64,000 nucleotides of DNA from Polytrichum commune (lineage: Eukaryota > Streptophyta > Polytrichopsida > Polytrichales > Polytrichaceae): contig OX485803.1 in assembly GCA_950295325.1 (NCBI GenBank), forward strand, positions 36,905,554 to 36,969,553, read 5' to 3'. Under the pieces are notes generated by a model that worked only from the letters and a program-made list of their open reading frames with translations, did no database searches and was not told the origin of the DNA. Shown in pieces: positions 26,672-62,843 of the stretch (position 1 is the first letter of the stretch; every line of letters begins with the position of its first letter). The position numbers were made by a program, and so were the translations under genes.

Positions 26672-26705
26672 AACACTATATTCGTTAAATTGAGACTTTT
26701 TGGGC
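26672..26705 (+). repeat. E2 left terminal inverted repeat
   Basis: AACACTATATTCGTTAAATT followed by GAGACTTT. It is identical to the complement of the right end (44313-44340) over at least 28 bases. Confidence 0.95.
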
Positions 26706-26829
26706 ATTTTGAGACATTCACAGAAATAAGAACAAGGATAAATGGAACACATATTGGAGAAAGTTGTAAGATGCGAACACTTTGAAGCGGGTGTTTAGAA
26801 CAAGAACCCCGTTAATAACTCAATATTTG

Positions 26830-27070
26830 GGATTGTTTAGGGTGGGCAATCCAAACCTTAGGCCAAGTTGAAGGGGAAATCTTAAAACATTCATATTATC
26901 GCACAAAAACTTGTATGAATATGGTTTAGGTAGGGCAATCCAAACCATAGATCATATTGAAGGGGAAATATGTGAACCAATATAATATAACATACAAAAT
27001 ATTCCAAACTCATATTTGTGATGGTTTAGGTAGGGCAATCCAAACCTTAGACCATATGGAAGGGGAAATC
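26830..27070 (+). repeat. E2 subterminal repeats with decayed palindrome
   Basis: Three units of about 90-100 bp, each containing GGTTTAGGTAGGGCAATCC followed by AAACC, or a close variant (about 26838, 26923, 27023), then ...GAAGGGGAAAT. The motif matches GGTTTGGGTCGGTCGACCC plus AAACC at about 19 of 24 positions. Some differences are of the CpG-decay type. Confidence 0.75.
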
Positions 27071-27212
27071 ATGTGACACTTATATTATTGCAAAAAAAAA
27101 ACATACAAAGTGTGGCATGTAAAATGCATAGCATGCTAACACAACACATCCATTGGATAGTGCGACCCAAAATGTTCTTGCCTATGGCCCAAAACCCTAC
27201 GCCTACTATGGC

Positions 27213-28030
27213 CTATCTAGCCTCGGAGACTACCTCTTTTTCTTTTGCTTCATTTTCTTTTGCTTTTTTTTCTTTTGCCTCTTTTTCTTTTGCCTCTTTT
27301 TCTTTTGCTGCGGCTTCTTTTGCTCGCATTGCTTCAACATTCCTGAAAATCTCCGCCCCGCGACTATAGCCATTCTTGGGGTGACCGCCATCAATAACAC
27401 ATTTTGGATTCCGTCGGCCGCCCGAATTATACGACGAAGAATTCGAATACGATGAAGTGGACTGTCTTGCATTTCTGGTCATGGAGTAGAAACGCTCCAA
27501 CTCGACGGACGCACTAGCCCGCATAGGTCTACGGGTGGGAGCAACCTGCAACGCGTGAATGCAAGAACACACGTGTTAGTTTAGGGAGGAAGACCCAAAC
27601 GTGTCACACGTTCATTTTTTAAGTGCCGGATGATTGTAATGCGCGGTTAACCATGTTTTGGGGGGGGGGGGTTCACCTTGTCACCGGGGGCGTTCCCGTC
27701 GGAGTCGGCGAGGAGGGGCAATGCGTCCCGCAAAGGAATAGGAAGGGTGCCACTCTTCGTAGGCCGAGCGTCCATCCGCAGCCGCCGTTGAGGTGTACTA
27801 CTGCCGCCGGGCCGAGAGGGGGACGTCCGGACGCATTTGCGATTTATGCCCTTGAGCGGCGACGGGGACGGAGATCGCCGGAAGATTTGCTTGGGTGGGG
27901 GGCTATCGACGACGCCGGCGTCAAGAGGCTCCTTGGAGTAGTCGATGGTGGACGCGGCATCGTAGACGGTCTCGTAGAAGAAGCTCCCCAAGTTTGATTC
28001 GCTAACGATCTCAATCGAGGGCTCCAAACG
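27213..28030 (-). CDS. E2 small two-exon gene or alternative 3' end of the fusion gene
   Basis: Two phase-0 exons on the minus strand, 28030-27677 and 27545-27213, with a GT-AG intron 27546-27676. The first contains YDAASTIDYSKEP, GVVDSPPP and RSPSPSPLKG. The second contains NGYSRGAEIFRNVEAMRAKE and a simple (A)KEKEAKEKK tail made by a 15-bp microsatellite. E3 has the homologous pair at 61637-62035 and 62186-62533, which supports real exons. No known domain is recognised. Because the exons sit just downstream of the stop of the phosphatase-like exon and start in phase 0, they could replace that exon by alternative splicing, or be a separate gene with its own upstream exon. Confidence 0.55.
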
Positions 28031-29409
28031 CTGGCGCAAAAAAGGAAACAAAACAAAACCCAAGGGGAGGGGGGGAGGGGGGAGCATGTGAAAATCGATA
28101 TACATTTGAGGCATAATATATCACACACAATGGCACACCATGTAGTATCTCAAATGAGTTTATTATATTTTGCGTGAGCGTACAACTCTCTGTACATATA
28201 GTCCTTCGGATCCATGTATCTTTCGCCTATCGGATTACAACTAAGGAACCGGGGCACGGGTAGTCCGCTCCCCACGAGCGTTTGAATGTACTTAAGTAGG
28301 TCTAACAAAAAGCGGTCTCGGACCTTCTCGACCGTCCACGTGGGGCAAACGATGAAGTTGGAGGTCGGGTTCAAAATGTTTTTGGAAGCGCTGTCGTCCA
28401 CCATCAACGTGTTGTCACGGGTGGGGCGAACGTCGTAGGGACAGCCGACCATGGTCGGACGCTGGTCCCATACAACTGGCTTCAAGACCTTAAGAAATTG
28501 GTTTACGGCGGGGTTGTTGGGCTTCTTCACAACCCTGCCCTCGGGGGTGTACAATGTTTTACAAGAATCCTGTCCTAAGACCAAGCACAGGGGTTGGAGT
28601 CCCTTGAAGATGAACTCCACGACGGCCTGGGTATTCTCGGACTTCATGGAGCTCCAAATGATCACCCACCATTTGGATAGGGCGACCTGTAGGAAGCGCC
28701 GAAGCCACGGGCGGAGGTACACTAGCTTGCTTTTGATGTACGCGGGGGGTCCATCGTAGTTGGCGTCCTCGGGCTTGCAGAAAGGCACCGTTGGGACCCT
28801 CGGACAATGCACGCACTGGACAAGGACCCCGTTGAGGTCTAGCACCAGGAACCGGGTCTTGGGAGGCGAAGGTGGCGAGGGCAAAATCGGGGGGACCACC
28901 GCGCTGTCCTCCACACTCCTCGGAGAGGATCGGTGGGGAGCCGCGACGCTATGCTCCGAACCCTGCGGCGACAAGCGAGAGAAGGCGACGAGGACTATGT
29001 TATGCTATGTCCATCTCAAGCAGAACGGAAATTTTGTGCAAACACAAGAAGAATTGGACCATTGGTGGCAACAAAAACATACAAGGGAACAACATACATT
29101 GGGACACGGATGCAAACATATGGGCGCCAAAAATAATAATTTTATTTTTACAAATCTCTATGTACAATTTGATTCGGGGGGGGGGGGGCGCGGTGAACGA
29201 GGGCATTTACACTATCCTAATTCTACATCTACAAAATTGGTTGCGCGCCGCCAAGGTCGAGCGTAGTCGAATGCAGGTCAGACGAAGGGGATCGCGGGGG
29301 GGCACGTTGGGGGGAGGGGGAGCAAGTGTAGACCAGGGGGGGCAGGGGGTGTGCATTTCCTCCTAGCAAGGGGGACACGACCACGCCAACAAGACAGTGA
29401 CCCAGGAAG

Positions 29410-29820
29410 TTTGGGTCGGTCGACCCAAACTGGGAGGGCTCAGTGTATTACCTCGCCCTGGTCATGTCTCGACGATATGGAAGCCTCCACCGTCCCCGCT
29501 GCCCCGCCTCTCTCGCCACCGCCTTCTCCGACGACGTCAGGAACCTTCTCCTGCAAACGATCGGCATCAGGCCCTTGTCCTAAACCAATCTCCGCATGTG
29601 CATCATGCATGGGTTCATCGATTTGGTTAGGAGTAGAGGTATCACCAGGCCCTTGCAGACCTTCAACATCTAGCATGGCCGTGTCTAGTTGACACCCATG
29701 TTGGTCAAGGGAGGACTGCGCTGCAACGGGGTTTGGGTCGCCTGACCCAAACTGTCCTGCATCTGGAGAGGGCCCTTCGGACACTACAGTGGATGGTGGG
29801 TTTGGGTCGGTCGACCCAAA
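29410..29820. promoter_or_regulatory. E2 palindromes in intron 3 and exon 3 of the fusion gene
   Basis: Copies at 29410-29429 (intron 3), 29732-29751 and 29801-29820 (both in the coding part of exon 3, read as FGSGDPN and MFGSTDPN). The coding copies show the motif is tolerated or selected inside protein sequence. Confidence 0.85.
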
Positions 29821-31014
29821 CATCCTGGGGTCGTCCGATTGGTGGGGTGGTGCCATGACTATGGGGGGCCGAAGTGGTGGAGGGCCCAAAGGGGAGGAGG
29901 CTCCAGAGACGCGCCAGATGTTGGGGTCATCCACTTGCTGGACCGGCGCGTACGGAACTTGGTGGGGCCGCATCAAGTGCTGGAAGCTGAAAGACGATTG
30001 CGGCACAGGCTGCTGAGGGATGCTCTGCGGAGGGAAGCCGGGGGGCAAGTGCGGGAAGGAACTGGAGGGAGCCACCACCAAACCTTGCGCCCACATTCCT
30101 TGTATCACTTGTGATATCAAGTCGGCGTGGGACGGAGGTTGGGCCATCGCCCTTTGACGCTCCTGCTCCAACAGGAGAGCCCTCAGCTCTGCGACCTCGT
30201 TCCGCATTGAGGGTTCTTCCGCGGCAGCCTTCTGCAGGCGGACTCGCTGCTCCTCGTCCCTCCTCATCTTCTCGTTCGCCTCCTCCACAGTCAGGACCTT
30301 GGGCTTCACCCTAACCATGCCAGCGAACGCTGTCGGGGACGGGGGATCTGATCTTAGCCGTTTGGCGAGCTCAATGTCATCGTCGTCCTCGCTACTTATG
30401 GCAATGGTCTCCTCCACAGAGTAGTCGCCATACAACTTCTTCCCCTTTAACTTCCTCCTCTCCCTGAACGTCGCGGTGGCGTCCCTGGAGTACATGTCCC
30501 GTGCATCGTCCACAGTCAGGACGGGCACGAGCTTACTCTGCGGGGTTGCCGCCCACATCGCCTTCTTCCGTTGAGGGGCTTCGGATTGTTGCGTGAAGCC
30601 CGTTGCCCCTTCCTCGACGTCGCCTTCCTTCTCCGCCTCCTCGTGTTCCTCTTCTTCCTCCTCCTCCTCCTCAACCTCGCCACCTTCTGTGCGGGACGGA
30701 TTGCCCGGATGCAACCCGACTAGAGGTTCGGGAACTTGGGTCGTGGCCCTCATGGCCATTTCCTCCGGGTTGATGCGCCTCACCCTATTAAGAGGGTTTT
30801 CGCCACCCTGAACAACCTCGTCGACGTAGCTACCCGGGATCCAATCGAGGATGTCCATCTTCTTCGCCAGCAATTTCTGCACCCTGTAAAATGGCAGATC
30901 GCCATCCTCTATGTAGGAGTATATATTCAGCCCCGACATCTACACAATCCAAGTTATAGGGAAATTAGAATTTGTCGAGGCAATCACATAAACAAGACTA
31001 AGTACAATGTGTAG

Positions 31015-31070
31015 TTTGGGTCGATCGACCCAAACCTGCAAAGAGCCTAGTTTGGGTCGGTCGACCCAAA
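31015..31070. promoter_or_regulatory. E2 palindromes in intron 2 of the fusion gene
   Basis: Two copies, 31015-31034 (centre AT) and 31051-31070 (centre GT), within the 160-bp intron 30940-31099. E3 has three palindromes in the equivalent intron. Confidence 0.9.
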
Positions 31071-32522
31071 CTGCTTACGAGCTATAGAAAGTCACTTACC
31101 ATAGCAGCATAGACAGGTTTTGAGCCTCCGAAGACATTGAAGATGCAGTCCCCTCTCCTTGTCAGCGTCCTCATCATTCTCATGTAAAATTCCATCCGCA
31201 GCTCATCTGCAGGATAGTTCGCATATTTAGCCTCGTCGTAGAGGCACTTGTTCGCACCCAACCCTTCTGGAACTTGGAAGAGTTTGTCCATCCGGGATAT
31301 AGGGTGGTTTGGCACCTTCAGCAACTCCGCTTTGTACACGAAGTACAAACACAAGACGTTGACGAACTTGGTCTTCTTGTCCTTCAACGTCGTGTAAGCC
31401 CCCTCCGCCGGTGCGGCGATGTAGTGAGACTTGGGCACTGCATACTCCGGCTGCAGTTTTCGGACAAGCTCGTACACCTGCTCTGCCCTTCTATCCTCGA
31501 CTATCCAAAGCCAGATATCTACCTCCCTGAACTTAGGGCTTGCATAATCGACGAACTTAGTTAAGAAGGGGTCGTAGAAGAGGGTGCTTATCGTGCCCTC
31601 AAATGAGCTTCCAGGAATATTTCTAAAATCAATCATCCCAAAAGGAAAGCGGTCCCTTGCTTTCGTCCTTATCGCCATTCTGGCGTCTTGACTTGGCCAG
31701 CCCTGAATTTTCAAAGGCTCGAAGGTGACAAGGTTGAAGTAAGCGTCCCCTTCAAACTGGACAATCTTCTTCTCCTTGATGAAGTTCGAGAACGCACACG
31801 CTGTGTGATCCGGAAGCGCCCGGTTCTTCCCACCCTTCACCATCTTGGCCCGCAAGAAGTCGTCCCCCGCTTCCCTTATTAGAGCCACCATGGAGGCACT
31901 GGTGAACTTATATTCATCTTTGAATGCTCTCCAGTTAGCCCCATGAACCTCGCCGTCCACGACAATATTCCTCTCTAGCACCAATTTATGCAGCTCCTGC
32001 ACGATAGTCGTCTTCTTTTTCCTGTTCTCCGTCCATTCCTTCATGGTGTAGCATGAAGGAACGAAGGATTTGGGCTTTACGAAGACAATCTTCGGGTGCA
32101 CCCAACACCTCTTGGCCGTGGGTGCCACGTGCAGAATGTGCGATGCCGCCTTCTCCACCTCCGTCTCTGACAGCCCTTGAAGAGTTCTAAAGAACTCTCT
32201 CACGAGAGGCTTCATCTGCTTGAAGCACGAGGTTTGGCTGAAGAAAATGCCAGTGTCGGGGTCGATCAAATCCCCCGTTTCGTGCTTTTCAAACACGGTT
32301 TTCCACTTCCTCCAAACTGAGTCCGATGCTGTAATCAAGTAAATCTCCCCCTTGAGGTCGCTGTATTTCTTCTGCTTGTGGCTCGAATTATCAATGGAGG
32401 AGAATTTGTTGATCATTTGGTATTTGAAATCCTACACGTGAACAAAACATAACATTTGAATGCGTGTTAGTTAAGTACATGTGATTTCCAAACCATATCA
32501 TGACCAACATCTACAACAAGAG

Positions 32523-32640
32523 TTTGGGTCGGTCGACCCAAACTGAAAAAAAACACAAGACTGCAACAGTTGTTTGGGTCGATCGACCCAAACTAAAAAA
32601 ACACAAGACTGCACCAGGAGTTTGGGTCGGTCGACCCAAA
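32523..32640. promoter_or_regulatory. E2 palindromes in intron 1 of the fusion gene
   Basis: Three copies at 32523-32542, 32573-32592 and 32621-32640, spaced by about 50 bp and joined by repeated AAAAACACAAGACTGCA spacers, all in intron 32432-32650. E3 has one palindrome in the equivalent intron. Confidence 0.9.
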
Positions 32641-34003
32641 CAATACTCACCTCCCACTTGGGATTCTTGTCCTTCGCATTCTCCCTCTTCTTGGGAGGCC
32701 TACCATAGAACTCCCACACCTCCCGCGAGGCCATGATATTCCTTATCCAGGAAGTTTGGTAGGCCCTCTTCTTGTTTCCCATATTGAAGTACCGGGAGAT
32801 GTCGCTGAGCTTGGTCTCGTCGTCAAACCACACCACCAGTGCCTTTCAAACCTTCAGCTTTTCCTTCTGATTGTTGGGATCGTCCCACTCATTCATGAGT
32901 TGGATTTTCTTGGATGCCTCCACGCTGTGTTGGCCGTCTATCAGCCAAAAATCGCCCTTCTGAATTGTTGGCCACATTTCAGGTGTAGGCATTTTCTTGA
33001 GACCCTGTGGCATCACTACAATCGTTTGGCTGTCGTCTTTAAATTGCTCGCAAACGATCTGCGCGATTATCCAGTCAACGTAGGCGTCCTCCTTTGCCCG
33101 GACACACTTCTCCGGTGGCGCTAGATGGCACTGGCTGATGTTCACGTCGAACTTGAAATCCCTGCCCATGAAAAAACAGTGGGAGCATTTCGTCGTGAAA
33201 TTGTTCACGATTTTCTGCAGCTCCCCTGCATCCACCTCTTCGCCGGGCTTCGGCATGCGCAACTCCGGTGAGACTGGCTCGTCAGTCATCACAGATGACT
33301 CTCTCGCCCTCTTGGATGGAGTTGTTTGACGGCTCCCAGAAGGTGTAGGGGTCTCACTATTCGTAGGTGTTTGGGAGGGAGTGGTCCTACGAGAGTCAGC
33401 CGGTACTGGTAGCGGCATCCTCACCGATTGAGGTCTTGACAACCCTGCTCCTTCCTCTGTGGGAGCTTTCCGCCTCACAGGTTGCTGTGATTTGGTTTTG
33501 CTTTGCAGGCCCCTGTTCAGCACGGTTATTGCATGTTTTAGTTTTGTGAACCGGCTTGAGACCTTGGTATTCGATGTACTCCCATCGATAAATATTGTCT
33601 CCGGCTTGATAACTTCCGGTTCAACACAGGACTCTCTTGCATAGAGTGCGTCGAAAGGCTCGGAGAACTGGTGCATGAACATATGCGCGTTCTGCACAGC
33701 CGAGTTCTCGAGGATGACGTCGGTATAGTCTCCAAGAGACTGTACCGATGCGACCTCCCATCCCGTAAGAGTCGCCCAGGTGTGTTTCTCCACGGTTCCC
33801 ACCTTGACAACAAAAATCATTTTGTATGTTGAGGTTTTGACTACTTGAATAGACCAAGCGAGGACAAGCCCGTCCTTAGGGGAATAGGAGTCATCCTGCG
33901 GGGTTTCGTGCTCCTGCCACAACATGTCCGGCGCAGGCATGAACCACCTTTCGCCGGGTCTTTTCTTTGGAGCCATCTGTAAGAAAATAATGCGCAAAGT
34001 TAG

Positions 34004-34437
34004 TTTCGGTCGTTCGACCCAAACATCTACGACATGAATAGGTTTAGGTGGATTGTGTATTTATATATTTCAGCATCATTTGTAATGATAATAAGAATGT
34101 TGTGATTATTGGGTGGATTTGCATTTTATATTGTTTGTGACATGCAGGATTCCTTGATACTTTTCCTTGATACATTCCTTGATTATTATTTTGGGTTGAT
34201 GTGAATTTTATATTGATGCAAAAATCATGGATTTCTTTATGAGTTTATAATTAGAAGACTTAGTTTGGGTCGTTCGACCCAAACATGATGCTTTGTGTTA
34301 TATTTTGGTCGTTCGGCCCAAACATGATGCTTTGTTTTGTGTTTGGGTTGAGCGACCCAAGCAAGGGGCTGTGTTTGGGGCTATGTTTGGGTCGGTTGAC
34401 CCAAACAAGAGGCTGTGTTTGGGTCGTCTCCCCAAAC
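34004..34437. promoter_or_regulatory. E2 palindrome cluster upstream of the fusion gene
   Basis: A copy at 34004-34023, just upstream of the start codon, and a group of about five at 34264-34437 with variable decay (centre mostly TT). They lie in the presumed 5' untranslated intron. Confidence 0.8.
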
Positions 34438-37400
34438 AATATTATTTTAATATATTTTTTAAACTTGGCATCTAGCATATACAATGCTTATGCATTGTGT
34501 ATGCTACAAAACCGTGAATATACAAACACATATTGGTTAAAATAAAACACAATACCTTTCAAAGATGTTGTGCAGACAATTTGGAGTAGAGCAGGTTGTT
34601 CTTCCAATAATTCTCAATATCAAACAAACTGTGAGAAAGTTCAATGAGAAACTTTCAAACAAGTATCAACTCTCTCAAATAGCTCTTGGATCTCTCAACC
34701 AACTCCTGAATCTCACACAGAACTACTGAATCTCTCAAAAGACTTCGAAATGTCTAAACCAACTCCTGAATCTCACACACAACTACTAAACCTCTCAAAA
34801 GCCTTCGAAATGTCCAAACCAACTCCTGAATCTCACACACAACTACTAAACCTCTCAAAAGACTTCGAAATGTCTAAACCCACTCCTGAATCCCTCACAA
34901 AACTATTGAATCTCTCAAACGACTTCGAAAACTCTCAAACAACTCTTGATACTCTTAAAGAACTCTTGAATTTCACAAGCACTCCTAAAACTTCCAGTAC
35001 AAACACCTGGACCTCCCAAACCGAAGCTTTATCTACTACCGAATGTTCTACTAACTTCCTTCAGCACTTTCCAATACTCTTCAACACTCTTTTGCTAACT
35101 TCCTTCACTCTCACGCTCTAAAACCTTCCTCCGTATGTTTCTGTTTCTTTCAAAACTCTTCCTAACTTCTAAGATTGCACAAGGGCTATTCTATTGAAGA
35201 GCAAAAGAAAGGAGGGAAAAGAAGATGCAGAAGAAAGCAATGAACACGGGAGAATGAAGGGTTAACCTACACCAAGCCTGATTCGCCGCGGCGCTTCAGG
35301 AGAGGCGGCGCTTCCAAGCGAGGCGCGGAGAGAGAGAGAGAGAGAAAGAAAGAAATGAGAAATGCGACGGTTGGGGTTTTGTTTACCTCGGGCATTGGCC
35401 CCCAACCGCATGAATAGGGTGCCCACAGGATTAGGGCACCCACGGAAACAGGGTTATAGGGAACCCTAAAACCTAAATCATAACGCTTGACTCTAAACCC
35501 TTAGCGGGCCTACCTCTTTAAGAGTACATAGGCTATTTGCCTCATAGCATAGGTTGCATTCTACAATATCAACTTTTTGTAAGTTGAAAACCTTTTGAGT
35601 TTGTAAGTTCCTCGCCAATTGCCTCAAAACTAAATTTTAGTAGGTTAAAATCCTTCATATCTTTTAATGTTGTAGGTTTTAAAATCAAAATTTGAGTACT
35701 AAGTGGGATCCTTCAAGTTGGCAGGAATCGAACCTGGCTCAGCCTTTCACCACGTTTGAAGGCCAAGGATTAACCAAGTCTTTTTTAAAGAGTTGATTAT
35801 AAGTTTTGAAAGCCTAGGTTGCTAAAATTCAAATGAGTTTAAGGGTGAAAGTTCTCACCATGTTCTCATTCAACCTCTACTCTTCCTGCAAGATATAGCC
35901 TAAAGATATGTACTTAGGCCAACTAATTTCCCAATTTGAAGAAGGATGAATGGCTAAAATCCTTTCTTTTAAAAAAAATTTAGGCAAAATTTCCTAAATG
36001 TTTTTATCACATAGGTTGATATCCTATGTTTTTAAATTGTCCATAGGCTCTTTGTCCTACACTTTCAAAATTTTATAGGCTAAGTCACTAATTTTGTAGG
36101 CTGCATTTGTTTTAATCGGTATATTCGTTAATTTGGGATTTTTTCGGCATTTTGAGAAAGTTACAAATATAAGAACATGGATAAAATCGCACGTACATTG
36201 GAGAATGTTGTAAGATGCAAATACTTTGAAGCGGGTGTTCATATCAAGAACGCAATTAAGATCTCATATGAAGATGGTTTAGGTAGGACGACCCAAACAT
36301 TACACTATGTTGTTGTGGTCCATATATTAATTTGAGAGAAGAGAAAATCTCAAATTAGCGAATTTTAGGGTTTAGGTTCTTTTGGACCCTGCTCTAAACC
36401 CTTATTAGTTTTTTCAAAAGAACTATGGAGTACCCTAAGGTGCTACATAAAATGTGTTATTCTACAAAACTAACCATTTATATAGCCAGCGCATTCTTAC
36501 AACAAAACTTTATGCTAAACTAATACTTATCCCCTACTTACATGACACCATACCCTAAATTTTCCAAAATCATTGAAGGCATTGGTTTCTCTTTTGTTTG
36601 AGCATGTTAGAAAATTTAAACCATATAATTGCGTTATATTTAACGATGTAACCATTCACATTTAGTCCTTACCAATGATGCCAACAATTCACACGATATT
36701 GAATGAAAAAAAAAAAGATTACCCACACCCCCCAACATGTGGAACAATTTAGAATAATTGAGTGTGGAGCCTAATAAATGAATACCTTCCCCAACTGCAT
36801 TTTGCAAGGGTTTTGAAATGCACGATCCTTATTTGAAAATGCGAACATGCTCAAGTTTTAAGTACATCCCTTAGATCGTGACTTTCACGAATCACATAGT
36901 CGCCAATAAATCATGGTTCATGATTTATTTAATATATAGATTGTGATATAAGAGTAAATGGGATAAGCACAACATCAAATGAAGCCATTCAAGCAATCAT
37001 GTTGTTATTCCCTGTTCCTTCCATGTATATTAGATGATGGCGCAAGATAAAATAGATGTTGTTTGTATATGGGGGCATCAGTGAACCACAACTACATTTG
37101 GTGTTTAGGGTTTAGGGTTTAGGAGATAGGAGATAGGAGATAGGGTTATAACATATTAATCTATCCAATGTCAATGTATAACATTGTCTTACTCGTGAGA
37201 AGAGTCTTATAGGAAGGTTATAGTGAAGACGATGTTGATTATGTTAATTTGTTATTCGAGACGTTTAAACGCGATATATTGATTGGTCGTGTGTTTATTC
37301 AAATAACATGAAATATTGTGGATGTTAATAGGGGCTAGGGGTCCAACTTTGGATGTTTCGCTCACTTTAGGGAATCACATATTAGTCGCTAATAAACCAT

Positions 37401-38306
37401 CGTTCATGATGTATTTAATATATGGAATGTCATGTAAAAGTAAATCGGAGAAGCACAACATCATGTTGTTATTCATTGTTCTCTCCACGTGTATTAGATA
37501 ATGGAGGAAGATATAACAGATATTGTTTGCATAATATGAAGAAGAGTCTAATCGGAAGGTCATAGTAAATACAATCTTGATCATGTTAATATGTTATATG
37601 GGACGTTTAAACATGATATCCTAATTGGTTTTGTATTTAGTCAATGCGTATTTCATGTTGTGGATGTTATAAGGGTTTAGGGTCCAATCTTGGATGTTTT
37701 GCTCTCACACATTAGTAAACTTGAAGTGAACTTGAGGATGGATTCAAGTAACATTAAAAGATTGAACTAGAAAGGGACATTGGTAGTTAGTATCCCCTTA
37801 ACAACGTCCACATACGTTCATCATTGCCACTCTTGCATGCGAGATAATAGAGCAAGGTTCTAGGGTTTAGGGTTTAGGGGGGACAAATAAATAATTCTAT
37901 TCATCATGACAATGGCCTCAAGCCTTGGAAACTCTCTCATAATTGCAGCCTCCAAATGGCCCAAACCCCACCTAAATAGGTTTACACTTGAAAGCATTGA
38001 ATGGAGTTGTGTTTGGGTCTACATATTGGTTAAAATATACCTTGATGATACTTGAAAAAATTAATGTGGCCGCCACCCTTCCTCCCAATGGCGTATGTCA
38101 TATCCACACAAAACAAAACAAATAGATTAAATAACATAGACTAAGTCATATGACGGCTAGGGTATCATAGAGGCATTGATAGATGCGCATTTTTCTATTA
38201 TAAACAGAAAACGGGGAATTCTGTCAGGAGGTTTGAAATAACCTCTGCAAGAGAAGAAGGCGGGGAAGGCATCCAATGACTAAGTCTGGGAAGCGGAGGT
38301 GGATAG
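34438..38306. other. E2 central non-coding region between the divergent genes
   Basis: No supported gene. It holds a short 60-bp tandem repeat (34690-34920, CTCCTGAATCTCACACACAA units), whose apparent Ser/Thr-Leu frame is a repeat by-product. It also holds a GA-rich block near 35325-35355, a MITE-like relic (36114-36372) and short telomere-like TTTAGGG runs (about 37107-37125, 37862-37880). The 5' exon and promoter of the minus-strand fusion gene are probably around 34600-35400. Confidence 0.5.
36114..36372 (+). mobile_element. MITE-like relic of the E2/E3 family
   Basis: The left side (TATATTCGTTAATTTGGGATT ... CTTTGAAGCGGGTGTT) matches the E2 left end and subterminal region (26678-26815). 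The right side (CATATATTAATTTGAGAG ... AAATCTCAAATTAGCGAAT) matches the E2 right end (44290-44332). Only about 260 bp remain, so it is an internally deleted derivative, degraded at the very ends. No duplication could be confirmed. Confidence 0.65.
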
Positions 38307-38313
38307 TATAAAG
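38307..38313 (+). promoter_or_regulatory. Possible TATA box of the E2 transposase gene
   Basis: TATAAAG followed about 30 bp later by a pyrimidine-rich stretch (TCCTTTTTTTCTCTTCTCCC) that would suit a plant transcription start. The palindrome array then lies between this promoter and the coding start, in a leader or leader intron. Confidence 0.4.
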
Positions 38314-38618
38314 GGGCGCACCCCCCAAAAGTCGGTCCTTTTTTTCTCTTCTCCCGCTGTCGAATTCGTAGAGAGAACTCTTAGTAGGAGCTGTACTTCA
38401 AGGTTCGTGCATGTTGCCGTTCATGAGCACTTATCCATAGCATGCAAGTTCATGAGCACCTATCCACACCATGCAAGCCCACCGTGAACTTTGCAATGAG
38501 CTCAAATTCAACACACCACGCAATATCCGCCGCATTATACGCCGGATTTTGTGGTGTACTTGGGCGAACCTTCACCTTTACACTAGTGTTGGCGGGTTTT
38601 GAGTCTGACCCTATGAGG

Positions 38619-49307: not shown

Positions 49308-49395
49308 GGATAGTCCTAACGCTTATTGTCAATGAAACACAATGTCAACAATAGTGGATTTCATGGCCTGGAAACAAAGACACATTGGTATACGA

Positions 49396-51652: not shown

Positions 51653-51740
51653 AAATCCTAAACCCTAAACCCTAAACCCTAAACACTATACCCTATACCC
51701 TATACCCTATACCCTATACCCTATACCCTATACCCTATAA
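51653..51740 (+). repeat. Interstitial telomere-like repeat
   Basis: About four CCCTAAA units pass directly into about nine CCCTATA units, all heptamers. Plant-type telomere sequence inside the transposon. Confidence 0.9.
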
Positions 51741-54069: not shown

Positions 54070-54385
54070 GCTTTTGCTTCCTTCTCTTGCAACTCTTGTT
54101 TATCTTGTTTATCTTGTTTATCTTGCTCATCTGCTCTTGCTTCTCTTGCTCATTTGCTCATCTTCTCTTGCTCATCTGCTCTTGCTCATCTTCTCTTGCT
54201 CATCTTCTCTTCTTCTCTTGCTCATCTTCTCTTGCTCAACTTCTCATCTTCTCTTGCTCATCTGCTCATCTTCTTTTGCTTCTTTTGCTTCTCTTCACTT
54301 TCTTCTCTTGTTTCTCTTGCTTCTTACCCTTATCTTCACTTTCTTCTCTCTCTTCTCTTGCTTCCCTTGCTGGTCTTGCTTCTCT
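54070..54385 (+). repeat. CTCTTGCTCAT pyrimidine-rich microsatellite
   Basis: Irregular CTTGCTCATCTTCTCTTGCTCATCTGCT repeats. Hydrophobic Leu/Ser open frames across it in all three forward frames are by-products. It may be part of a leader. Confidence 0.85.
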
Positions 54386-55252
54386 TTCCTCACAATGCAA
54401 AACTCATTCTTATTGGTCAATTGCTGACGCGCGTCAGAGCTAGAGTAAGTTCTCCTTGTTTGCTGCTCATTTGCTTATTAGCTCATTAGCTCATTAGTAA
54501 GTTTTGCTTGCTGCTTGCTTGCTTGCTGCTCATTAGATCATTAGGATGCTCATTGTTGCTTGCTACTGCTCATTAGGTTGTTTTCAGTTGTTGATCTCAG
54601 TTGTTGCAAGGGTAATTAGTGTTTCAGATGTTGCTCATTAGGGTTTCAGTTGTAGCTTCACCATGTAGTTCATTATATTTTTTGCATACAAATCAATAGT
54701 TTCCTTTCACTTGTGTTGCATGAATCTGATTTATGAGCAACTTTTTTGAGTAGTTCTCAATGTTGAATCATGCATGTGCACATTGAATTACTAGAGGTTT
54801 CTGACCTCAATTTTATTGTTCATTTGCAGTTGGTATTAGCTGCAGCAGGAGCAGCTAGTTGTGGTTTAGGAGCAAACACTCTAGAAAGGTAAGTTTTTTA
54901 GAACATTGCAATTGCATTTTGTATGATTGCAATTTTGGGTTGTTGTGGTTTAGGGCTTAAGGTTAGCATGACAGAATGTGAGATTCCAGTTTCAAGGAAT
55001 TCTGAATTTGTTTAGTACTTTGTCTATGGCTACATTCTAAGAATCATTTAGTTATGGACATGTCAGTGTTCTGAAAGTGCCTTATGTTGTCAATCTGCAG
55101 TGCAGTGTTTGCTATTGCAGTGAAGTAAGATTGCATTCTTATTTGGAGGGCAAAACCATATTGGACGACAAGGTAAAGTCCCGAAAAACACGGAGCATTA
55201 ATGAAAACATTGGAATACGCAAACATTACAATAGCCTTTATAATCCTCAAAG

Positions 55253-55987
55253 TTTACGGACGCGCGTCCGTAAACTTTGTGGATCTTTGTGTAGGTGAGA
55301 GACAAGCCTCTCAAACAACATATTACGCAAACGAAGCCAAATATTGTAATATTAGGCATATTAAAATAGCCTTTATAATACTCAAAGTTTACGGACGCGC
55401 GTCTGTAAACTTTGTGGATCTTTGGGTAGGTGAGAGACAAGCCTCTCAAACAACATATTACGCAAACGAAGCCAAATATTGTAATATTAGGCATATTAAA
55501 ATAGCCTTTATAATACTCAAAGTTTACGGACGCGCGTCCGTAAACTTTGTGGATCTTTGGGTAGGTGAGAGACAAGCCTCTCAAACAATATATTACGCAA
55601 ACGAAGCCAAATATTGTAATATTAGGCATATTAAAATAGCCTTTATAATACTCAAAGTTTACGGACGCGCGTCCGTAAACTTTGTGGATCTTTGTGTAGG
55701 TGAGAAACAAGACTCTCAAAAATATATGTAGGTGAGAAACAAGACTCTCAAAAAATGTAGGTGTGAAACAAGACTCTCAAAAAAATATTAACCGTAACTT
55801 GAATACATTGATATTTACCACCATACTATCTTTGCGAAGTTTACGGACGCGCGTCCGTAACTTATAGAGATATTTGAGTATATATAATATACGCGTTATG
55901 CGTATTTGGAAGAAATGTATCTTTTCATTTGGATCCAAAAATATAATTGAGACAATTTGGAAAACTTTACGAACGCACGTTCGTAAA
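55253..55987. promoter_or_regulatory. E3 palindrome array upstream of the fusion gene
   Basis: Sites at 55253, 55388, 55523 and 55658 lie in an exact 135-bp tandem repeat. Further sites are at 55840 and 55966 (diverged). They sit in the presumed 5' untranslated intron that ends at the acceptor just before the ATG at 56043. The 135-bp repeat also produces a repetitive open frame on both strands, which is not a gene. Confidence 0.92.
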
Positions 55988-56042
55988 GTATGATCTATAT
56001 CTTTTGCCAAGAATTCTAACTTATCTATCTTATCATTTGCAG

Positions 56043-59000
56043 ATGGCATCTAAAAAGAGACATGCAATTGAGATGTTCGCAGAAGCTCTCATTCCTCCGC
56101 TACCAGAAGCCATCAAAGACATAAGTCCCAACGACCATTACAAGCCACAAGATGAAATTGTGGATAATTGGACAGTATTGGTAGAAAAGGACGAGAAAGA
56201 AATATTTGTGCTTAGATTTGCATATCAAATGAAGACGGACATAGATGAAGCTGAGAAGTGGATAAAGCTTAAATCGTGGACAGTAGAGTGTGCAGTGGCA
56301 CAAAGGGATTATGTAGTAATAGACCTTGAGAAGAAAGAAGATCGGGTCACTTTCATTTTGCACGAATCCTACCACCCCTTCAACAAAAATGAGTGTGAGA
56401 ATGCTAGTACAGATGCGGCTTGCTTCAATCTCCAGACGGAGTTCCAAGACTATGCATGCAATGCACCTTGGACGGGTAAGCGGCTTGGACGACTCTTGAA
56501 CAATGTAACAAGAGTAAATGGAGCCTTGCTAGAGGCCAGAAAGGGGAAAGATAAGAAAAAACAAGTCGTTCCTGAACGACCCAAGCGTGTGCCTAAACCA
56601 GTGCCGGAATCCTCAAGGCCCTCGCAGAGTGGTGCATCAAGAGGGAGCAGACAAGCGAGTAAACGCTCTCACTGGCAGATGGACTCTGGACTAACAGAGG
56701 GTCCGGATGTCAGCTCTACACTGACTGTCGCTCCACTCCTCAAAAAGGGTCAACGCCCTGACGCCGAACTCTCAACAAAAATATTCCAAGAGTTCGATGA
56801 GAAGACGAAGGGATGCTGGCCCCTTGGCATGTATTTTACTTTCGAAGTAGACGTCTACAAATGCCACAAGGGCACCGAAAGTATGAATACCAGAGCAAAA
56901 GAAGAAAGCGGTGTATGGTGGCAAATGAACAACATCATGAACAACCCCAAGTTTGATATGCAAACCATTTGTGTGACACCAAAGGATCCTATCGTTGAAG
57001 TCAACGAAAAGAATTGGCCGATTCTCAAGAATGGAGAGTTCTACATTGTCGACGGCCAACATAGTGTAATGGCTGCAAAAGCTCTCCTTGAAGACGACGA
57101 GTGGAAAAGCCCATTAAAGGAGACAATCCGATATTGGAAGGCATTCGTCGTGCATTCCAAGGACTCGAACCAACTCATAGCAATATCTGCCTTCATGAAC
57201 CAGGGGAATAAAGTGAGGCAGTTCGAGGCTTCATGGGCAGCCAACATCGTGGCTGGGAGGACCTTGTGGGTGGAGCACGAATGTCCCCCAAAAGAAAGAG
57301 ATAATGCTGTCGTGAAGAACCCAAAATGGCAGGTATGTTACTCAAATAGATTTACGGACGTGCGTCCGTAAATGTGGCCCTTCTCCTCCCACTGATTCAA
57401 ATATTTGAATTTAATTTGTACTGAATTCAATGTTCTGATTTCTTGCAATTCGCGCCTCTTGCAGACATTCAGCAATGCCATATTGACAAAGTTCTCGAGT
57501 ATAGACATGAAGACAAGCGGCATGAAAACAGTGCATGAATTAAAAGGCGAACTCAAGCTCATCACTGCAACAGAAGAGACGTGGTCAATATGGTTGCGAC
57601 TTTTCGATGCCCACAACAACGGCGACCTTGTCAATCCATATACGGAGAACACCTACAAGAGCGACTCAAAAGTTAAGGTACCACCAATCCTACGAGAGTT
57701 CTTTCGTCCCCTCCAAGGATTGATGGACTCGGAGCTGTACAAGGCAGCAGAACACATTCTTCTAGAAACTCCTAGAAGAACTCTGCCCTATCCCAAAATC
57801 TTTCTGAAGCGGCCGAAGCACATGAAGCCATCCACGTACCACATTAAGGAATGGTGCGATTACAGAAAGAAGAAGACCATGGCTGTAAGGGAGATTAGCA
57901 AATTGCTACCCACCCACAACCTCATTAATAGTGATGGTGAGATCGTGTGGGAGAATTGGAGGAAGCTGAAGGGTGAATACCACATCAATGGCGTCTCAAT
58001 GCGAGCTTTGATAAGAGGGGCATCATCCTTCCTTGCCCAACGATCCAGAAGGAACAAAAAGAAGGGATCCATCGACGAGAGGGAGGCAGGGTTGTATGTT
58101 CACTTTCTCGATAGGAAAAAGAACGCGAAATTTGGAGGGTTTGCAAGATTCTGCACGGTCGCAAAGGGCATGAAGTTCGGCGCATGGGACACCCATGCTT
58201 CAAGAGCCTCTGTGAGAGATGACCCCAGGGGTTGCCCTTTCGCCATTTTTGATTTTCGTGCAATTCCCGGAGCATGGAAGCAAGACGTTGCGGGAGCACC
58301 CTTCTACGAGCCCTTCTTAAAAGCCTTCAAGAGCTATCGCTCGCCTGCCCTCTTCGAGCCTCATGTGTGGTTATGGATTGTAGAGCAAGAGAGGTCCACA
58401 TCCATTGTCCATCTGTACACATCAACGATGGACCTCGAATACGATATGTACCACAACACCTACATCCCAGCGAAGACAGAAGGGATCACTTTCATTCAAG
58501 AGGCAAGGGGGGTGAAGCAAGTGGGAGCTGTGCAGCTTTATTTCTTAACACGCAAGTCTTCCCCAACTGGGCGATTGCCCATTAAACCACACGAGGTGTT
58601 CAGGAAAGTCTATTCGTTGCCGCCACCACATCCCAAGGAGCTTGTTGAGGAGACAATGCATGCAATCTATCCGGCGTTCGAGCTCCGGATGGACTTTTAT
58701 ATAGGGGTCTTGAAGGCTTTAACTGTCATGAGTGAGACAGTTTACAACGTCTTCGGAGGCACGAAGTTTATGTATGCAGCACTGGTGAGTATTTGTTTGT
58801 CTTTCAACCCACCTATCTTTTGCATAGTTATTTTACGGACGCGCGTCCGTAAAAACCCAGTATCAGGTGCATGTGAATTTTACGACCGTGCGTCCGTAAA
58901 ATTGTCCAACTTTTGAGTGGTGGTTTTACGGACGCGCGTCCGTATAACGTGTTGACATCTAGCCTCATTTATATGCAATCACCACTATTGTTCTTATCTA

Positions 59001-61544
59001 ATTTTCTTGTTATGGTCCAGATGCTTGGCTTGCAGGTGAATTCTTTTGTGCAGGATTCCGACTACGATGACGCCCATACTCACAGGGTAATGGCCTCCAA
59101 AATGGATATCCAGGACATCATGGACGTCCTTACACCCCATCCTGTTGTGCCTCTTTCTTCTAGAGAAGAGGCAATGCCCGGAATGGAGACAGACCCTGAA
59201 GAGGACCAAGATCCCAGTTCCCCAAGAGCGCAACCCTCCACACAGGAGCCTTTACACGGCCTTGTTCGCGACCCAATTAATCCAAGTGTTTTCCTGCTGG
59301 GAACAGACGACACGGATGCGCAGGAGGCACGCGTGAACTTCACTCCGATAAGGGTCCCTCATACCCCTGTTCTCTCACCTTTTGGGACTCCCACCTCTCG
59401 AGTTGGATTTCCCTCAACTGCGGGTCCATCTCGTGCTCCAGGAGTTATGGCCGAGAAGGATGTGGACCTTGCGGCAGAAGGCGGATGCACCGCTTCATCT
59501 GGAGGGGGATCTCAACATTCAGATCTACCCCCTATGGAGGGGAGGGATGTGCTGGAGTTGATATTGAGGCCTGATATCTCTCTATATCGTGAGAGTCGAC
59601 GAAAGAGGAACAAGACGCCATACAACGAATACCCTGAAGGCGCGGTCTTGGAGCTCTCCGATGAAGACGAGGATGAGATTAGGATTCACAATGCCATCTC
59701 TGCCTTGCCTACAGAACCTGGCAAGGTGAAGAAAGAGCCGATGTCAGTGTCCGAATTGGACGAGAAGATGGAGAGGCGAATGAAGGAAGAGCTTGACCAA
59801 CGGCTTCGAGAAGCTAACGAGGAGCACGCCAAAAAGATGGCCGCCATCCAAGCTGAGATGGAGCAAGCTAGGTTGGAGTCTGCTCGAAGGCACGCCGATC
59901 TCATGGCCCAAAATCAACAGTTCTTGGCCCAAAGTCAACAATTTATGAGCCTGATGCAGAGCTTGCAGGCAAGACCCCCTGTAGTCTATACAGCTCCCGA
60001 TGCCGTCATGTCTATGCCCCCCACTCTCATGCGGCCTCCGTCTAGTAGCCATGCGGTGTATATACCCGAGCATGCTTATCCAGCCCCCGCGTTGATTGTC
60101 CCGCCCTCTCCCCTTGTTGTCGCCACTCCAGAGGAGCCCTCCTCTCATCCTACAGGAGTGGAGGAGATACCGGCACGTGACATGGCGGGTGCCGCCGAGA
60201 CAGATGTCAATGAAGGCAATGCCCCCATCGGCGATGAAGATGTACATATGCGGGGCAGCCAAGACTCCACAGATGAGGATCAGCCTTACGTGGATACTCA
60301 AGGGTCGCAAGCGGCTGGAGACACCTTGTTGGTGGTCGAAGATCTGGACAATTTTGCGGACGCGCGTCCGGATCCTGTGCCCATGACGGGGCCAGGTGAG
60401 GGAGGCACTGCTGGCGCGGACCTCGCCCTTGAAGAGGTAATCAACCTTTGAGCATGCCTCCCACGTTACGGACGCGCGTCCAAAACTTCCTTGTCTGCCT
60501 CCTTCGTGGCGTGTGTATATTATCGAGTTCAATCCTCGACTTCGCCCGGCGGGTGGATACAATTTTGTTAGCATAGATTCCATTAACTTCAACAGATATT
60601 TTTTGCGACAATGTATATTATTCACCAAATGTATATCACCAATTACATTAATACCAATTTTTCAACTGGATGGTTCGGATTATTTTTGGCCTTATAATTT
60701 GTGTTGAGTTTATCCATGCTTGTCAATTGGTTTTCTTGAGTAGTACCATTTACCTAGATAGAATGTTCCATCACAGGGTCCGTCGGAGATATGTCGCAAC
60801 CCCGCGGGAAAACCAAGCGCGCCCATGATGAAACCGTTCATAATATTTGACCTCAATGGGGTGCTTTGTCAATCCAAACATATCTCGAATAGTGCGTCCA
60901 AGGGGCCCTTCCGTAGTCCACAAGACATGGATTACGGCGGACATTTCGATACTCTCATAAATAAGAAGGTTGTACGTGCCCGCCCCGGTTTGAGGAGCTT
61001 CCTTCGTGAGGTCCTTGGCTTCGCCCATGTCATCATCTGGAGCTCTATGCTCATGGACAACACGAAGGCCATCGTCGGTTTCCTTTTCCGAGAACTCGCA
61101 ATGCCATGCTTGCTTCTCGGTCAAGAACACTGCGATGACCTCTATGACCGTAGTGGCAATATTGTACCCAAGGTTGGAGGAGGTCGTGGGCCTCAATTCT
61201 TAAAGGTCCTGAGGAAGAACCTCTGGGTGGGCGTCCCTATGTTGGAGGGGGTTCCCCACGGTTGTTGGCCCACCCCGGATAACACACTCCTCATTGACGA
61301 CAGCCCGGCAAAGAGTATTCTCAATCCCCCGGGCAATTGCATATTCCCGGATCCTTGGGAAAGCGATAGAAATGACAACTTTCTAGAGAGTGAACTAGGA
61401 CCCTACATTAGGAGGCTTGCCTATCACCCCGGAAGTGTCCCGGATTTTGTGCTCTCCAACCCAATTGGCAATAGGCCTCTAGGCCCACAAGATGAGGAAT
61501 TTAGGAGATTGTACGGCTACGCTAGACTCAATAAATTAATATGA
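56043..61544 (+). CDS. E3 ParB/DGQHR-like - MTase-like - coiled coil - FCP1-like fusion protein
   Basis: Four exons, 56043-57332, 57465-58784, 59021-60436 and 60777-61544, all introns phase 0 and GT-AG, encode about 1,597 residues. Residues ~330-400 (FYIVDGQHSVMAAKALL, then LIAISAFMNQGNKVRQF) have the DGQHR signature and following helix of the ParB/DndB-like superfamily. Residues ~431-870 resemble a class-beta DNA N6/N4 methyltransferase in permuted order. DFRAIPG (~693) stands where DPPY is expected, then a strand HVWLWIVEQE. Finally IYPAFELRMDFYIGVLKAL with VYNVFGGTK and AAL resembles motifs X and I. Both catalytic motifs are degenerate, so activity is doubtful. Then comes a Pro-rich acidic region with a coiled coil (KMERRMKEELDQRLREANEE). 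The C-terminus is FCP1/NIF-like: IIFDLNGVL (~1367), VIIWSSM, LLIDDSPAKSILNPP; the second catalytic Asp is Asn. One mRNA is inferred from splice sites conserved with E2. Confidence 0.72.
57351..57372. promoter_or_regulatory. E3 palindrome in intron 1 of the fusion gene
   Basis: TTTACGGACGTGCGTCCGTA plus AA, one central mismatch from perfect, inside intron 57333-57464. Equivalent to the three E2 sites in its intron 1. Confidence 0.9.
58832..58946. promoter_or_regulatory. E3 palindromes in intron 2 of the fusion gene
   Basis: Three sites at 58832, 58878 and 58925, spaced about 46 bp, all within intron 58785-59020. Equivalent to the pair in E2 intron 2. Confidence 0.9.
60353..60486. promoter_or_regulatory. 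E3 palindromes in exon 3 and intron 3 of the fusion gene
   Basis: The site at 60353-60374 is coding (read as FADARPD), near the end of exon 3. The site at 60465-60486 is a decayed copy inside intron 60437-60776. E2 has palindromes in the same exon and intron. Confidence 0.85.
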
Positions 61545-61636
61545 AAACTTTGATGATTTTGGGTTTGTACTTGGACTCTCCATGTAAATATCTAACATTT
61601 CTCCCCTTATCTTTGTAATGTATTTTTGTGTCTTAG

Positions 61637-62533
61637 TTGCCTCACCAAGCACCCAAAAGTGTCGTCAATGGCATGTCTGCATCTCAGGCAGACACCGGCT
61701 CCCTTTCCCTTGGTATGAGCGACGTTGCAATGCCTTCACTATTCCAATATTCGGCCGTCGATGCTGCCTCTGCTGTTGATTACTCCAAAGACTCCGGGTT
61801 TGAAGACGGAGTCGTGGATAGCCCTCCTGCAAAGGTTGCAAAACTCAATTACTCTCCAAGTCCATCTCCATCTCCCCTCCGCAGTGAGAAGCACGTCCGT
61901 AACCCACGGTCGACCAGACGCCTTTGCATGGATGAACCCCAAATTGATGTCCCGGCGTTTGCGAACGTCCCTCTCGGGCTTGTATCTACACCCGTCGATG
62001 TCCCAAAAGCTCTAACCAGCGCCCCAAAGGCGAAGGTGCCCAACTATTGGCATTCTCAAGTTTTTCCTTGATGATTTCCGTGTATTAGTGCATTTCAACT
62101 TCTTGGGTTTTTCGGACTTCCATCCGTAACTTGTAACCACTTATACTAACCCACTTCATTATATATATTTATGGTCATTGTTCAGACCCCAATGTACACG
62201 AATGTGGGCCGGGCATCATCGACTTCGTCATTGGATAGGCGAACACTGAAGACAGCTTCTTGCGAGTCTGATCGTTGTTTGGCCCTACGGAAGAGTGCAA
62301 GACGTTCGGTTTCCCAAACGCATTCGTATTCCACTTATTCGGAAGGGGGTCGGCAAATATGGGCAAATGGCGCATATTCGGGGTCAACAAATAAACAAGG
62401 TTACAGCCGCGGACCCGAGATCTTTAGAGCCATGGAGGCCATGAAAGCAAAGGAACATGAAACGGCCGTAAATGCTAATAATAGTATTGCAAAAGCAAAA
62501 GTAGTGAGTCGTAATCATGATCCGAACGTATAG
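61637..62533 (+). CDS. E3 small two-exon gene or alternative 3' end of the fusion gene
   Basis: Exons 61637-62035 and 62186-62533, GT-AG intron, both phase 0. The first carries VDAASAVDYSKDS, GVVDSPPAK, SPSPSPSPLRS and TRRLCMDE. The second carries QGYSRGPEIFRAMEAMKAKE. The order and blocks match E2 27213-28030, supporting real coding function. No recognised domain; basic, Ser/Pro-rich and probably disordered. The acceptor at 61637 follows the phosphatase-like exon stop by under 100 bp. Either exon 4 is skipped to give a second C-terminus, or this is an independent gene whose first exon is not visible. Confidence 0.55.
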
Positions 62534-62815
62534 GCTATATTAACATACATGTAGTTGTGGAATTATGTTTCTAGGACTTTCGCCTAATATTGGATATTCC
62601 ACTTGCATTTTGTACTTCAACCCCTATTCAATAAATATGATATTGATTTTCCATATGCAAATGTTTTCATATATCCCATTTTCTTATTGTTAATGTGTAG
62701 TTCCATGCATTTGAGTCTCTTATTTGTTTCCAAAATTGGGAACATAGCATATTTTTAGTGTTTTCATTCCTATAAATGTGAAAGCCACGTCCTTAAATAG
62801 TCTCAAAATTAACAA
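62534..62815. other. E3 right subterminal region
   Basis: AT-rich 3' flank with AATAAATATG near 62630, which could serve as a plant polyadenylation signal. No gene. Confidence 0.45.
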
Positions 62816-62843
62816 AAAGTCTCCAAATAACGAATATAGTGTT
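62816..62843 (-). repeat. E3 right terminal inverted repeat
   Basis: Complement begins AACACTATATTCGTTATTTGG then AGACTTT. It is followed directly by the ATGG duplication. Confidence 0.95.

Follow-up and report, generated by a model that had tools for sequence, protein, structure and literature searches.

Private palindromes and a diverged second gene in two large DNA transposons of Polytrichum commune: a possible VANC-like self-recognition system

Two related DNA transposons of about 17.5 kb, E2 and E3, lie in a 64,000-nucleotide stretch of the Polytrichum commune genome (contig OX485803.1, positions 36,905,554 to 36,969,553; hereafter the window), and each contains, in many copies, a type-specific 22-bp palindrome of the form 10-NN-10, which is absent from the preliminary description of this DNA. 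Both elements encode a putative DUF7869 transposase and a large second protein, from divergent genes. As the anatomy of palindromes and genes matches that of the targets of VANC proteins in Arabidopsis transposons, we give about an even chance to the second protein being a VANC-like factor of sequence-specific self-recognition and anti-silencing.

The preliminary description had announced two related transposons with a common terminus, 4-bp duplications and the same divergent gene blocks in opposite overall orientation, and all of this holds for two elements that are complete (Table 1). Their 16-base terminus, AACACTATATTCGTTA, occurs four times exactly in the window, at 26672 (+), 44325-44340 (-), 45494 (+) and 62828-62843 (-), and a window scan allowing up to three mismatches gives five occurrences, including these four, against 0.61 expected by chance. 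The 28-bp terminal inverted repeat (TIR) is perfect in E2 and pairs at 27 of 28 positions in E3, position 17 being the sole mismatch. The target-site duplications (TSDs), TCAT and ATGG, are exact and, when each element is taken out in silico so that a single TSD copy remains between its flanks, the resulting sequence aligns without gaps with a paralogous empty site in the window, for E2 (63224-63341; 95% identity over 118 bp) as well as for E3 (26096-26215; 93% over 120 bp). Both insertions and the 4-bp duplication are thus directly seen. The stretches 26096-26427 and 62844-63341 are two copies of one local repeat hosting E2 and E3, each of which supplies the other's empty site. The two divergent gene blocks and their opposite orientation are confirmed by exon-by-exon homology, and the best explanation is that a single large family of cut-and-paste DNA transposons includes E2 and E3 as members of two subfamilies.

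Over the whole genome (408 Mb in 64 contigs), the 16-base terminus has 1,273 exact copies (635 + 638) and its reversed control none. Equal 4-bp flanks are present in all 22 adjacent +/- end pairs less than 50 kb apart, compared to 18 of 462 mismatched pairings, in a test using the 95 contig-C1 rows among 100 ends listed, with a pattern that skips ends having a T four bases out. Six further elements were selected, all on contig C1, as end pairs 16.9-18.1 kb apart and, together with E2 and E3, they make up the eight full elements compared here, all of which have exact 4-bp TSDs. With the DUF7869 exon of E2 as query, at least 124 scored genome matches are obtained including itself, the rest being 89-98% identical. 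The NIF exon of the E3 second gene gives at least 147; the full top score over 260 amino acids (aa) is reached by 23 of these, the exon itself plus 22 others, and the matches listed include other groups at about 93%, 88% and 63%. These many near-identical exon copies point to recent movement of the family. E2 itself is damaged: about 936 bp (42178-43113) are inserted in the transposase coding region, and exon A of the second gene has an in-frame stop. The E3 frames have no comparable break in the open-reading-frame list. The E2 insertion has TGTCGCG/CGCGACA ends and is bordered by a short direct repeat, ACATTTGT; it is 99% identical to an insertion in another of the eight elements, F37219, and 77% identical to a stretch of a locus described below, L013, and is probably a small mobile element in its own right.

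The palindrome of the E2 type, P1, reads GTTTGGGTCG-NN-CGACCCAAAC, and that of the E3 type, P2, reads TTTACGGACG-NN-CGTCCGTAAA. Perfect P1 copies number 23, 36, 31, 24, 12 and 27 in the six E2-type elements, and perfect P2 copies 10 and 12 in the two E3-type ones; block shuffles, three per element, average at most 1.0 palindrome of this size. When up to two mismatches are allowed, the arms are perfect in 153 of 196 P1 sites and in 22 of 41 P2 sites, the central dinucleotide taking 12 and 4 forms, respectively. At up to three mismatches there is no P1 in the two E3-type elements and no P2 in the six E2-type ones. The genome contains 9,231 exact P1 and 1,147 exact P2 sites, with no site for the reversed controls. 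In the elements, the palindromes are embedded in local tandem repeats, the period of which differs from one element to another.

The placement of the palindromes was counted in the eight elements for sites with up to three mismatches, using spans fixed by conserved protein motifs. The elements contain 31, 17, 40, 41, 29, 19, 24 and 38 sites (239 in total), 233 of which lie upstream of exon A of the second gene, upstream of the transposase, in the intron between exons A and B, or in the stretch from exon B to the NIF exon. Every site is so placed in seven of the elements; in the eighth (C28958), 6 of the 29 sites are unassigned, because the boundaries of A and B were not located. No site is found in exon A (eight elements of eight), in exon B (seven of seven located), in the transposase spans (six of six located) or from the start of NIF to the nearest end (eight of eight). 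The outermost sites with up to two mismatches are, depending on the element, 2,363-3,898 bp away from the left end and 3,790-5,729 bp away from the right end; E3, oriented as for the comparison of elements, has a more diverged palindrome about 2.3 kb from its right end.

DUF7869 is the sole family above the cut-off in Pfam scans of the transposase regions of both E2 and E3, and the protein, which has homologues of these regions in all seven other elements, is presumed to be their transposase. Its conserved stretches HDKMD, VQLDNCAKDNK and GHTHDDID might correspond to a DDE-type core. A comparison by hhalign with the genome's own TNP2 transposases shows no similarity, with shallow alignments (Neff about 1.4 and 1.1) and therefore low power, and a PDB sequence search with the transposase alignment finds no credible relative. 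A few DUF7869 copies come near the full Pfam model in one frame (C2:52992202, C6:41940433, C7:2075344 and C3:1632694), several of them with an in-frame stop, and these are possibly further families.

The second gene, divergent from the transposase, is made up of the frames A, B, C, NIF, E and F, each of which is represented by a homologue in all eight elements. Between the E2 and E3 types it is more diverged (29-34% identity for exon A, 36-41% for exon B and 40-42% for NIF) than the transposase (65-68% for T1 and, by piece, 53-76% for T2). For exon A, an AlphaFold model (E3, positions 56751-57335; seven sequences; mean predicted local distance difference test, pLDDT, 68) shows a predicted ParB/Srx-fold domain. 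The first 28 Foldseek matches consist entirely of ParB, Noc, KorB, Srx (sulfiredoxin) or SbnI chains, the best with an E value of 5.0e-03 and a probability of 1.00 and none with an E value at or below 0.001, and its comparison with Myxococcus ParB gives a VIA Z of 9.0 (root-mean-square deviation, rmsd, 3.0; 95 aligned). A weak sequence match to a ParB-like family, phrog_1033 (E 0.025), falls at the same place. The Pfam scans give no ParB match and recognise no ParB helix-turn-helix (HTH) or C-terminal domain, and PDB sequence searches with the exon A and exon B alignments find no credible relative. A YEATS match to exon A (E 0.017, below the cut-off, in one of seven members) was judged to be due to chance.

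For exon B, the top matches of the model are the permuted amino-methyltransferases MTA1c, M.BceJIV and CcrM, with METTL3/14 lower, which tentatively suggests the permuted Rossmann fold of amino-methyltransferases. Amino-methyltransferases of the MT-A70/beta class have the catalytic motif [DNS]PP[WYF]; this motif (DPPW/DPPY) is absent from all seven aligned exon B sequences, which read DFR followed by variable residues at the catalytic position (for example FDFRAIPG and IDFRNIPG). Similarly, phosphatases of the haloacid dehalogenase (HAD) group carry DxDx(T/V), and the NIF domain reads DLNGVL or DVNGIL at this position in the eight copies inspected; a PDB sequence search with the NIF alignment gives a weak match to UBLCP1 (E 0.0007). 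An NCBIfam scan yielded nothing useful and Pfam, which includes a DUF1985 model, gives no DUF1985 match in the second-gene frames scanned. As the methyltransferase motif is lost and the NIF active site altered, the second protein seems closer to an assembly of binding domains than to one of active enzymes.

A third DUF7869 group has a 692-aa frame and many copies among the matches listed. At locus C2:4151001-4180500, its ends read, by eye and in one copy, ATGGGGATATTAACTAAAATGAG with TACC on both sides. This family encodes DUF7869 (2.4e-46) and NIF (4.4e-11), a ParB-like segment with GQHT, 22% identical to exon A, and, by eye, a NICGGNK segment like exon B. Its palindrome, CCCACGGGTG-NN-CACCCGTGGG, has 644 exact sites in the genome and nine perfect copies at this locus, seven of them upstream of genes or between coding frames and two inside stop-to-stop frames, at local positions 7103 (region C) and 9245 (exon A frame, beyond the aligned domain). 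Three different palindromes thus go with three DUF7869 groups that have the same domains.

P1 is also present outside E2-type elements. Among 100 P1 sites listed, 77 are assigned by position to three AACACTA elements, one of these being listed with its left exact terminus only. The other 23 are elsewhere, one of them (438279) beyond the sequences analysed. At two loci, L013 and L014, and at their neighbours (L017-L019), P1 occurs with another palindrome, CCCTGTGCGT-NN-ACGCACAGGG, which has 461 exact sites in the genome. In L013 and L014, the gene encodes a DGNHR motif that looks ParB/Srx-like by eye, ahead of a methyltransferase-like exon, and the methyltransferase-like exon of L019, a neighbour of L014, matches a PHROG DNA methyltransferase (E 5e-05). 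L014 has in addition, in divergent orientation, a gene that resembles a transposase, with a SWIM match below threshold (E 0.076) and no DUF7869 match, and, judged by motif, this element may be akin to Mutator-like elements (MULEs). The alignment of the ParB-like domain with the MULE-like DGNHR protein by hhalign covers only 23 columns round the motif, with a probability of 3.3%, and so gives no sign that the two are homologous. P1 may be shared because a single factor serves both transposon types, or because one type exploits the factor of the other. A palindrome of another sequence, P4 (GGTGTCTCGG-NN-CCGAGACACC), forms arrays of about 139-bp spacing in L017 (7469-9975) and L013 (93-947). It has 292 exact genome sites, mostly in arrays among the sites listed, and adjoins, by eye, another methyltransferase-like frame without a Pfam match (L013:1473-1847); P4 could simply be a satellite and is left out of the argument.

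In the VANDAL elements of Arabidopsis, which are MULEs, the anti-silencing activity of VANC is demonstrated, and its motifs are found in tandem in introns and upstream regions, according to the available parts of the reports (PMC5735166, PMC10398659). VANC targets evolve fast, different VANCs having different motifs, and the transposase is more conserved (PMC5735166); the stem 'palindrom' does not occur in the accessible part of that report. The elements described here resemble VANDALs in their repeated, type-specific motifs, which lie in introns and upstream of genes, in their diverged second protein and in their more conserved transposase. They differ in that VANC has DUF1985/DUF287, in that their transposase is not MULE-type and in that anti-silencing is here deduced from anatomy. 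We infer binding of the palindromes by the second protein, with anti-silencing or activation rather than repression as the outcome. The protein would recognise, as a dimer, the private 10-NN-10 palindromes of its own element, those in both gene promoters and in the introns of the second gene being its binding sites. The bound copies would stay transcribed, host silencing being counteracted, and the second protein would be a functional analogue of VANC, built from different domains.

Several points weigh against this reading. The binder of the palindromes could instead be the transposase or a host factor, and a repressor or an autoregulator would leave the same DNA pattern. As MULE-like elements carry P1, the pairing of sites and proteins is not strictly one-to-one. 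The six additional elements are biased towards complete copies, since they were selected by end spacing. Some of the sites between exon B and NIF could be coding, as this stretch contains region C: the P1 at 29800-29821 lies inside the region C stop-to-stop frame in E2 and outside it in another of the elements, B7843. E3 and F37219 each have one more diverged P2-like palindrome between transposase exon regions, probably intronic. Regarding the models, middling Z values are common according to VIA's own caution, and the exon B model has a mean pLDDT of 39.6 and weak best matches (Foldseek E 0.033; VIA Z 8.6, rmsd 7.8, 202 aligned). Finally, the phosphate motif of ParB, its nucleotide-contacting P-motif, is GERR; it is replaced in exon A by GQHS in the six E2/E3-type rows and by GQHT in the third family, which makes a cytidine triphosphate (CTP) switch doubtful.

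The preliminary description had proposed an apparently undescribed type, set apart from En/Spm by a 4-bp duplication, by DUF7869 in place of TNP2 and by a very large second gene with prokaryote-like and host-like domains. En/Spm (CACTA) elements have a 2-3 bp TSD, a 5'-CACTA terminus and a TNP2-type transposase; here the TSD is of 4 bp in the eight full elements and in the 22 end pairs, the terminus is AACACTA, with the TSD outside the AA, and Pfam finds DUF7869 and not TNP2 (PF02992). Sola elements, on the other hand, duplicate 4 bp, the TSD size agrees with Sola-1, and the E2/E3 family could be Sola-like. Chapaev elements, according to the part of the source available, have a 3-4 bp TSD and invariable CAC/GTG termini (PMC4079192), so that the TSD size fits and the termini do not. 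The likeness to the CMC superfamily (En/Spm, Chapaev) is that CACTA stands two bases into the TIR; the difference is that the ends are AACAC, or ATGGG in the third family, instead of CAC, with DUF7869 instead of TNP2.

The domain content of the second gene is supported by the NIF matches to PF03031 (Table 1) on the eukaryote-like side and by the ParB-like and, more weakly, the amino-methyltransferase-like fold models on the prokaryote-like side. The pairing of ParB-like and methyltransferase domains has a precedent. As far as the source was available, Sola1-1_Ec32 of Ectocarpus is a 21.5-kb DNA transposon with a gene for a ParB-like and amino-type DNA methyltransferase protein on the strand opposite to the transposase; similar proteins are cited for green and red algae, and the authors propose that they may bind and modify their own transposon (PMC12477816). 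It shares with E2 and E3 the giant size, the opposite-strand accessory gene and the pair of ParB-like and amino-methyltransferase-like domains, and these differ from it by the degenerate methyltransferase motif, the added NIF phosphatase-like domain and the type-specific palindromes; in the main text of PMC12477816, 'palindrom' and 'binding site' are found 0 times. The accessory protein type is thus not new, and the claim of an undescribed type has to be narrowed: the defining features of En/Spm and Chapaev do fail, and the ParB-methyltransferase accessory gene was already in print. The palindrome system, the NIF fusion and DUF7869 in such a role were not found in the literature searched, the limited coverage of which makes this weak evidence.

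It is possible, albeit rather unlikely, that E2 and E3 are ordinary Sola-1 members with a known ParB-methyltransferase accessory gene, in which the palindromes are incidental tandem-repeat sequence. Their 4-bp TSD and the second-gene type of Sola1-1_Ec32 agree with this, but incidental repeats would not be expected to fix the same 20 bases across differing periods, with a free central dinucleotide and outside the located exons. A Sola-1 classification as such can go together with any reading of the mechanism of the second protein.

The ParB-fold domain and the palindromic nucleation sites of similar size also recall ParB-parS, from which the present system differs, in comparison with the accessible parts of the reports (PMC7053999, PMC8367383), by phosphate-motif residues that are not kept (GQHS/GQHT), by the lack of a ParB HTH or C-terminal domain in Pfam scans and by its location in a eukaryotic transposon. 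A bolder proposal is that several transposon families mark themselves in a ParB-parS-like manner: a dimer would nucleate on the palindromes and spread, the dead methyltransferase and phosphatase-like domains would block silencing or re-set RNA polymerase II (Pol II), and the palindrome would define a private recognition group that other superfamilies (MULE-like) join by acquiring it. We hold this to be unlikely, ParB-like spreading being speculative since the phosphate motif of ParB is not kept. It seems just as doubtful that the second protein represses its own family, or regulates its copy number, in a sequence-specific way, the palindromes being its operators. Operator-like palindromes are indeed present upstream of both genes, and the repressor KorB is among the ParB-fold matches; however, the intronic sites and their tandem expansion resemble VANC targets more than operators, and more than 100 nearly identical copies suggest escape, not restraint.

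In En/Spm, subterminal TnpA repeats serve synapsis and excision, and the palindromes could likewise be transposase-binding sites needed in cis for these steps. They are type-specific, repeated and of high copy number, and the transposases have themselves diverged (T1, 65-68%), all of which would fit. We nevertheless consider this improbable and put it lower, because, in the eight elements, all sites with up to two mismatches stay more than 2,360 bp clear of the left end and more than 3,780 bp clear of the right end, whereas a role in synapsis would call for sites close to the ends. In addition, P1 is present in a MULE-like element, and the transposase-like gene of that element lacks any DUF7869 match. 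Two internally deleted copies (L015 and L016) have perfect TSDs and no P1 site. They were dropped as proof that the palindromes are dispensable for mobility: the L015 junction is found once in the genome (up to two mismatches), so the deletions may postdate insertion. Least probable of all is a role of the second protein as a writer of N6-methyladenine or N4-methylcytosine on its own element's DNA, as proposed for the algal proteins. Its domain pair and strand arrangement match the Sola1-1 gene of Ectocarpus as available in PMC12477816, and its fold matches are to amino-methyltransferases, but the catalytic position reads DFR, not DPPW/DPPY, in the seven exon B sequences.

Table 1. Features of E2 and E3, in positions of the window
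Feature	Position	Strand	Remarks
E2, complete transposon	26672..44340		17,669 bp; TSD TCAT at 26668-26671 and 44341-44344
E2 left TIR	26672..26699	+	28 bp, perfect against 44313-44340
E2 second gene, frames E and F	27216..28120	-	cross-element homology
E2 second gene, NIF phosphatase-like exon	28153..29004	-	PF03031, E=3e-14
Two P1 sites between E2 NIF and region C	29409-29430, 29800-29821
E2 second gene, region C frame	29443..30939	-	acidic, low-complexity; part may be intron; 29% over 136 aa
Two P1 sites between E2 exon B and region C	31014..31071
E2 second gene, exon B, amino-methyltransferase-like	31085..32431	-	37% identical to E3 exon B; fold from model of E3 copy
Three P1 sites between E2 exons A and B	32522..32641
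E2 second gene, exon A frame, ParB-like	32849..34060	-	in-frame stop just after; homology resumes at 32501-32845; fold from model of E3 copy
P1 and degenerate P1 sites, upstream of or at start of E2 second gene	33987..34424
P1 array upstream of E2 transposase	38618..39555		tandem repeat units mainly of 64 and 120 bp
E2 transposase, exon region T1	39791..41290	+	stop-to-stop frame; 67% identical to E3 T1
E2 transposase, DUF7869 part	41350..42312	+	PF25273, E=4.1e-44; frame enters insertion of about 42178-43113
E2 transposase, C-terminal part, past insertion	43084..43806	+	53% identical to E3
E2 right TIR	44313..44340	-	perfect partner of left TIR
E3, complete transposon	45494..62843		17,350 bp; TSD ATGG at 45490-45493 and 62844-62847
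E3 transposase, DUF7869 and C-terminal region	46154..47770	-	PF25273, E=4.5e-40
E3 transposase, exon region T1	47715..49322	-	frame list, cross-element homology
Diverged P2-like palindrome TTACGGATGTACATCCGTAA between E3 transposase T1 and T2	47771..47790		more than 3 mismatches; not among the 239 sites
P2 array upstream of E3 transposase	49844..50450		95-bp tandem repeat
P2 array upstream of E3 second gene	55250..56006		135-bp tandem repeat
E3 second gene, exon A	55947..57332	+	start provisional; to CAG/GTATGT donor; ParB/Srx-fold domain (predicted) about 56751-57332
E3 intron between exons A and B	57333..57464	+	CAG/GTATGT...TTGCAG, GT...AG by eye; one P2 at 57351-57372
E3 second gene, exon B, amino-methyltransferase-like	57465..58913	+	frame passes GTGAGT donor 3' of VFGGTK motif
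P2 sites between E3 exon B and region C	58831..58965
E3 second gene, region C frame	58877..60448	+	frame list, homology
E3 second gene, NIF phosphatase-like exon	60762..61541	+	PF03031, E=4.4e-13
E3 second gene, frames E and F	61637..62530	+	cross-element homology

Two other features of the window are recorded here. Telomere-like CCCTAAA/CCCTATA runs are found in E3 (51648-51740) and in E2 (37101-37137). A TNP2-type (PF02992) transposase of an En/Spm-like element, with at least 150 scored matches in the genome, lies at 10570-13278 (-) and is presumably that of the element called E1 in the preliminary description.

If the second protein of E2 and E3 is a VANC-like anti-silencing factor, it would represent a second, independently built case of sequence-specific anti-silencing, and a testable one. 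The algal ParB-methyltransferase proteins are intriguing, with a function that is only proposed in the available part of their report (PMC12477816); here, the likely targets are visible. They consist of thousands of fixed palindromes in VANC-type positions, the sequence of which differs where the second proteins have diverged, and the E2 and E3 types thus supply candidate protein-site pairs.

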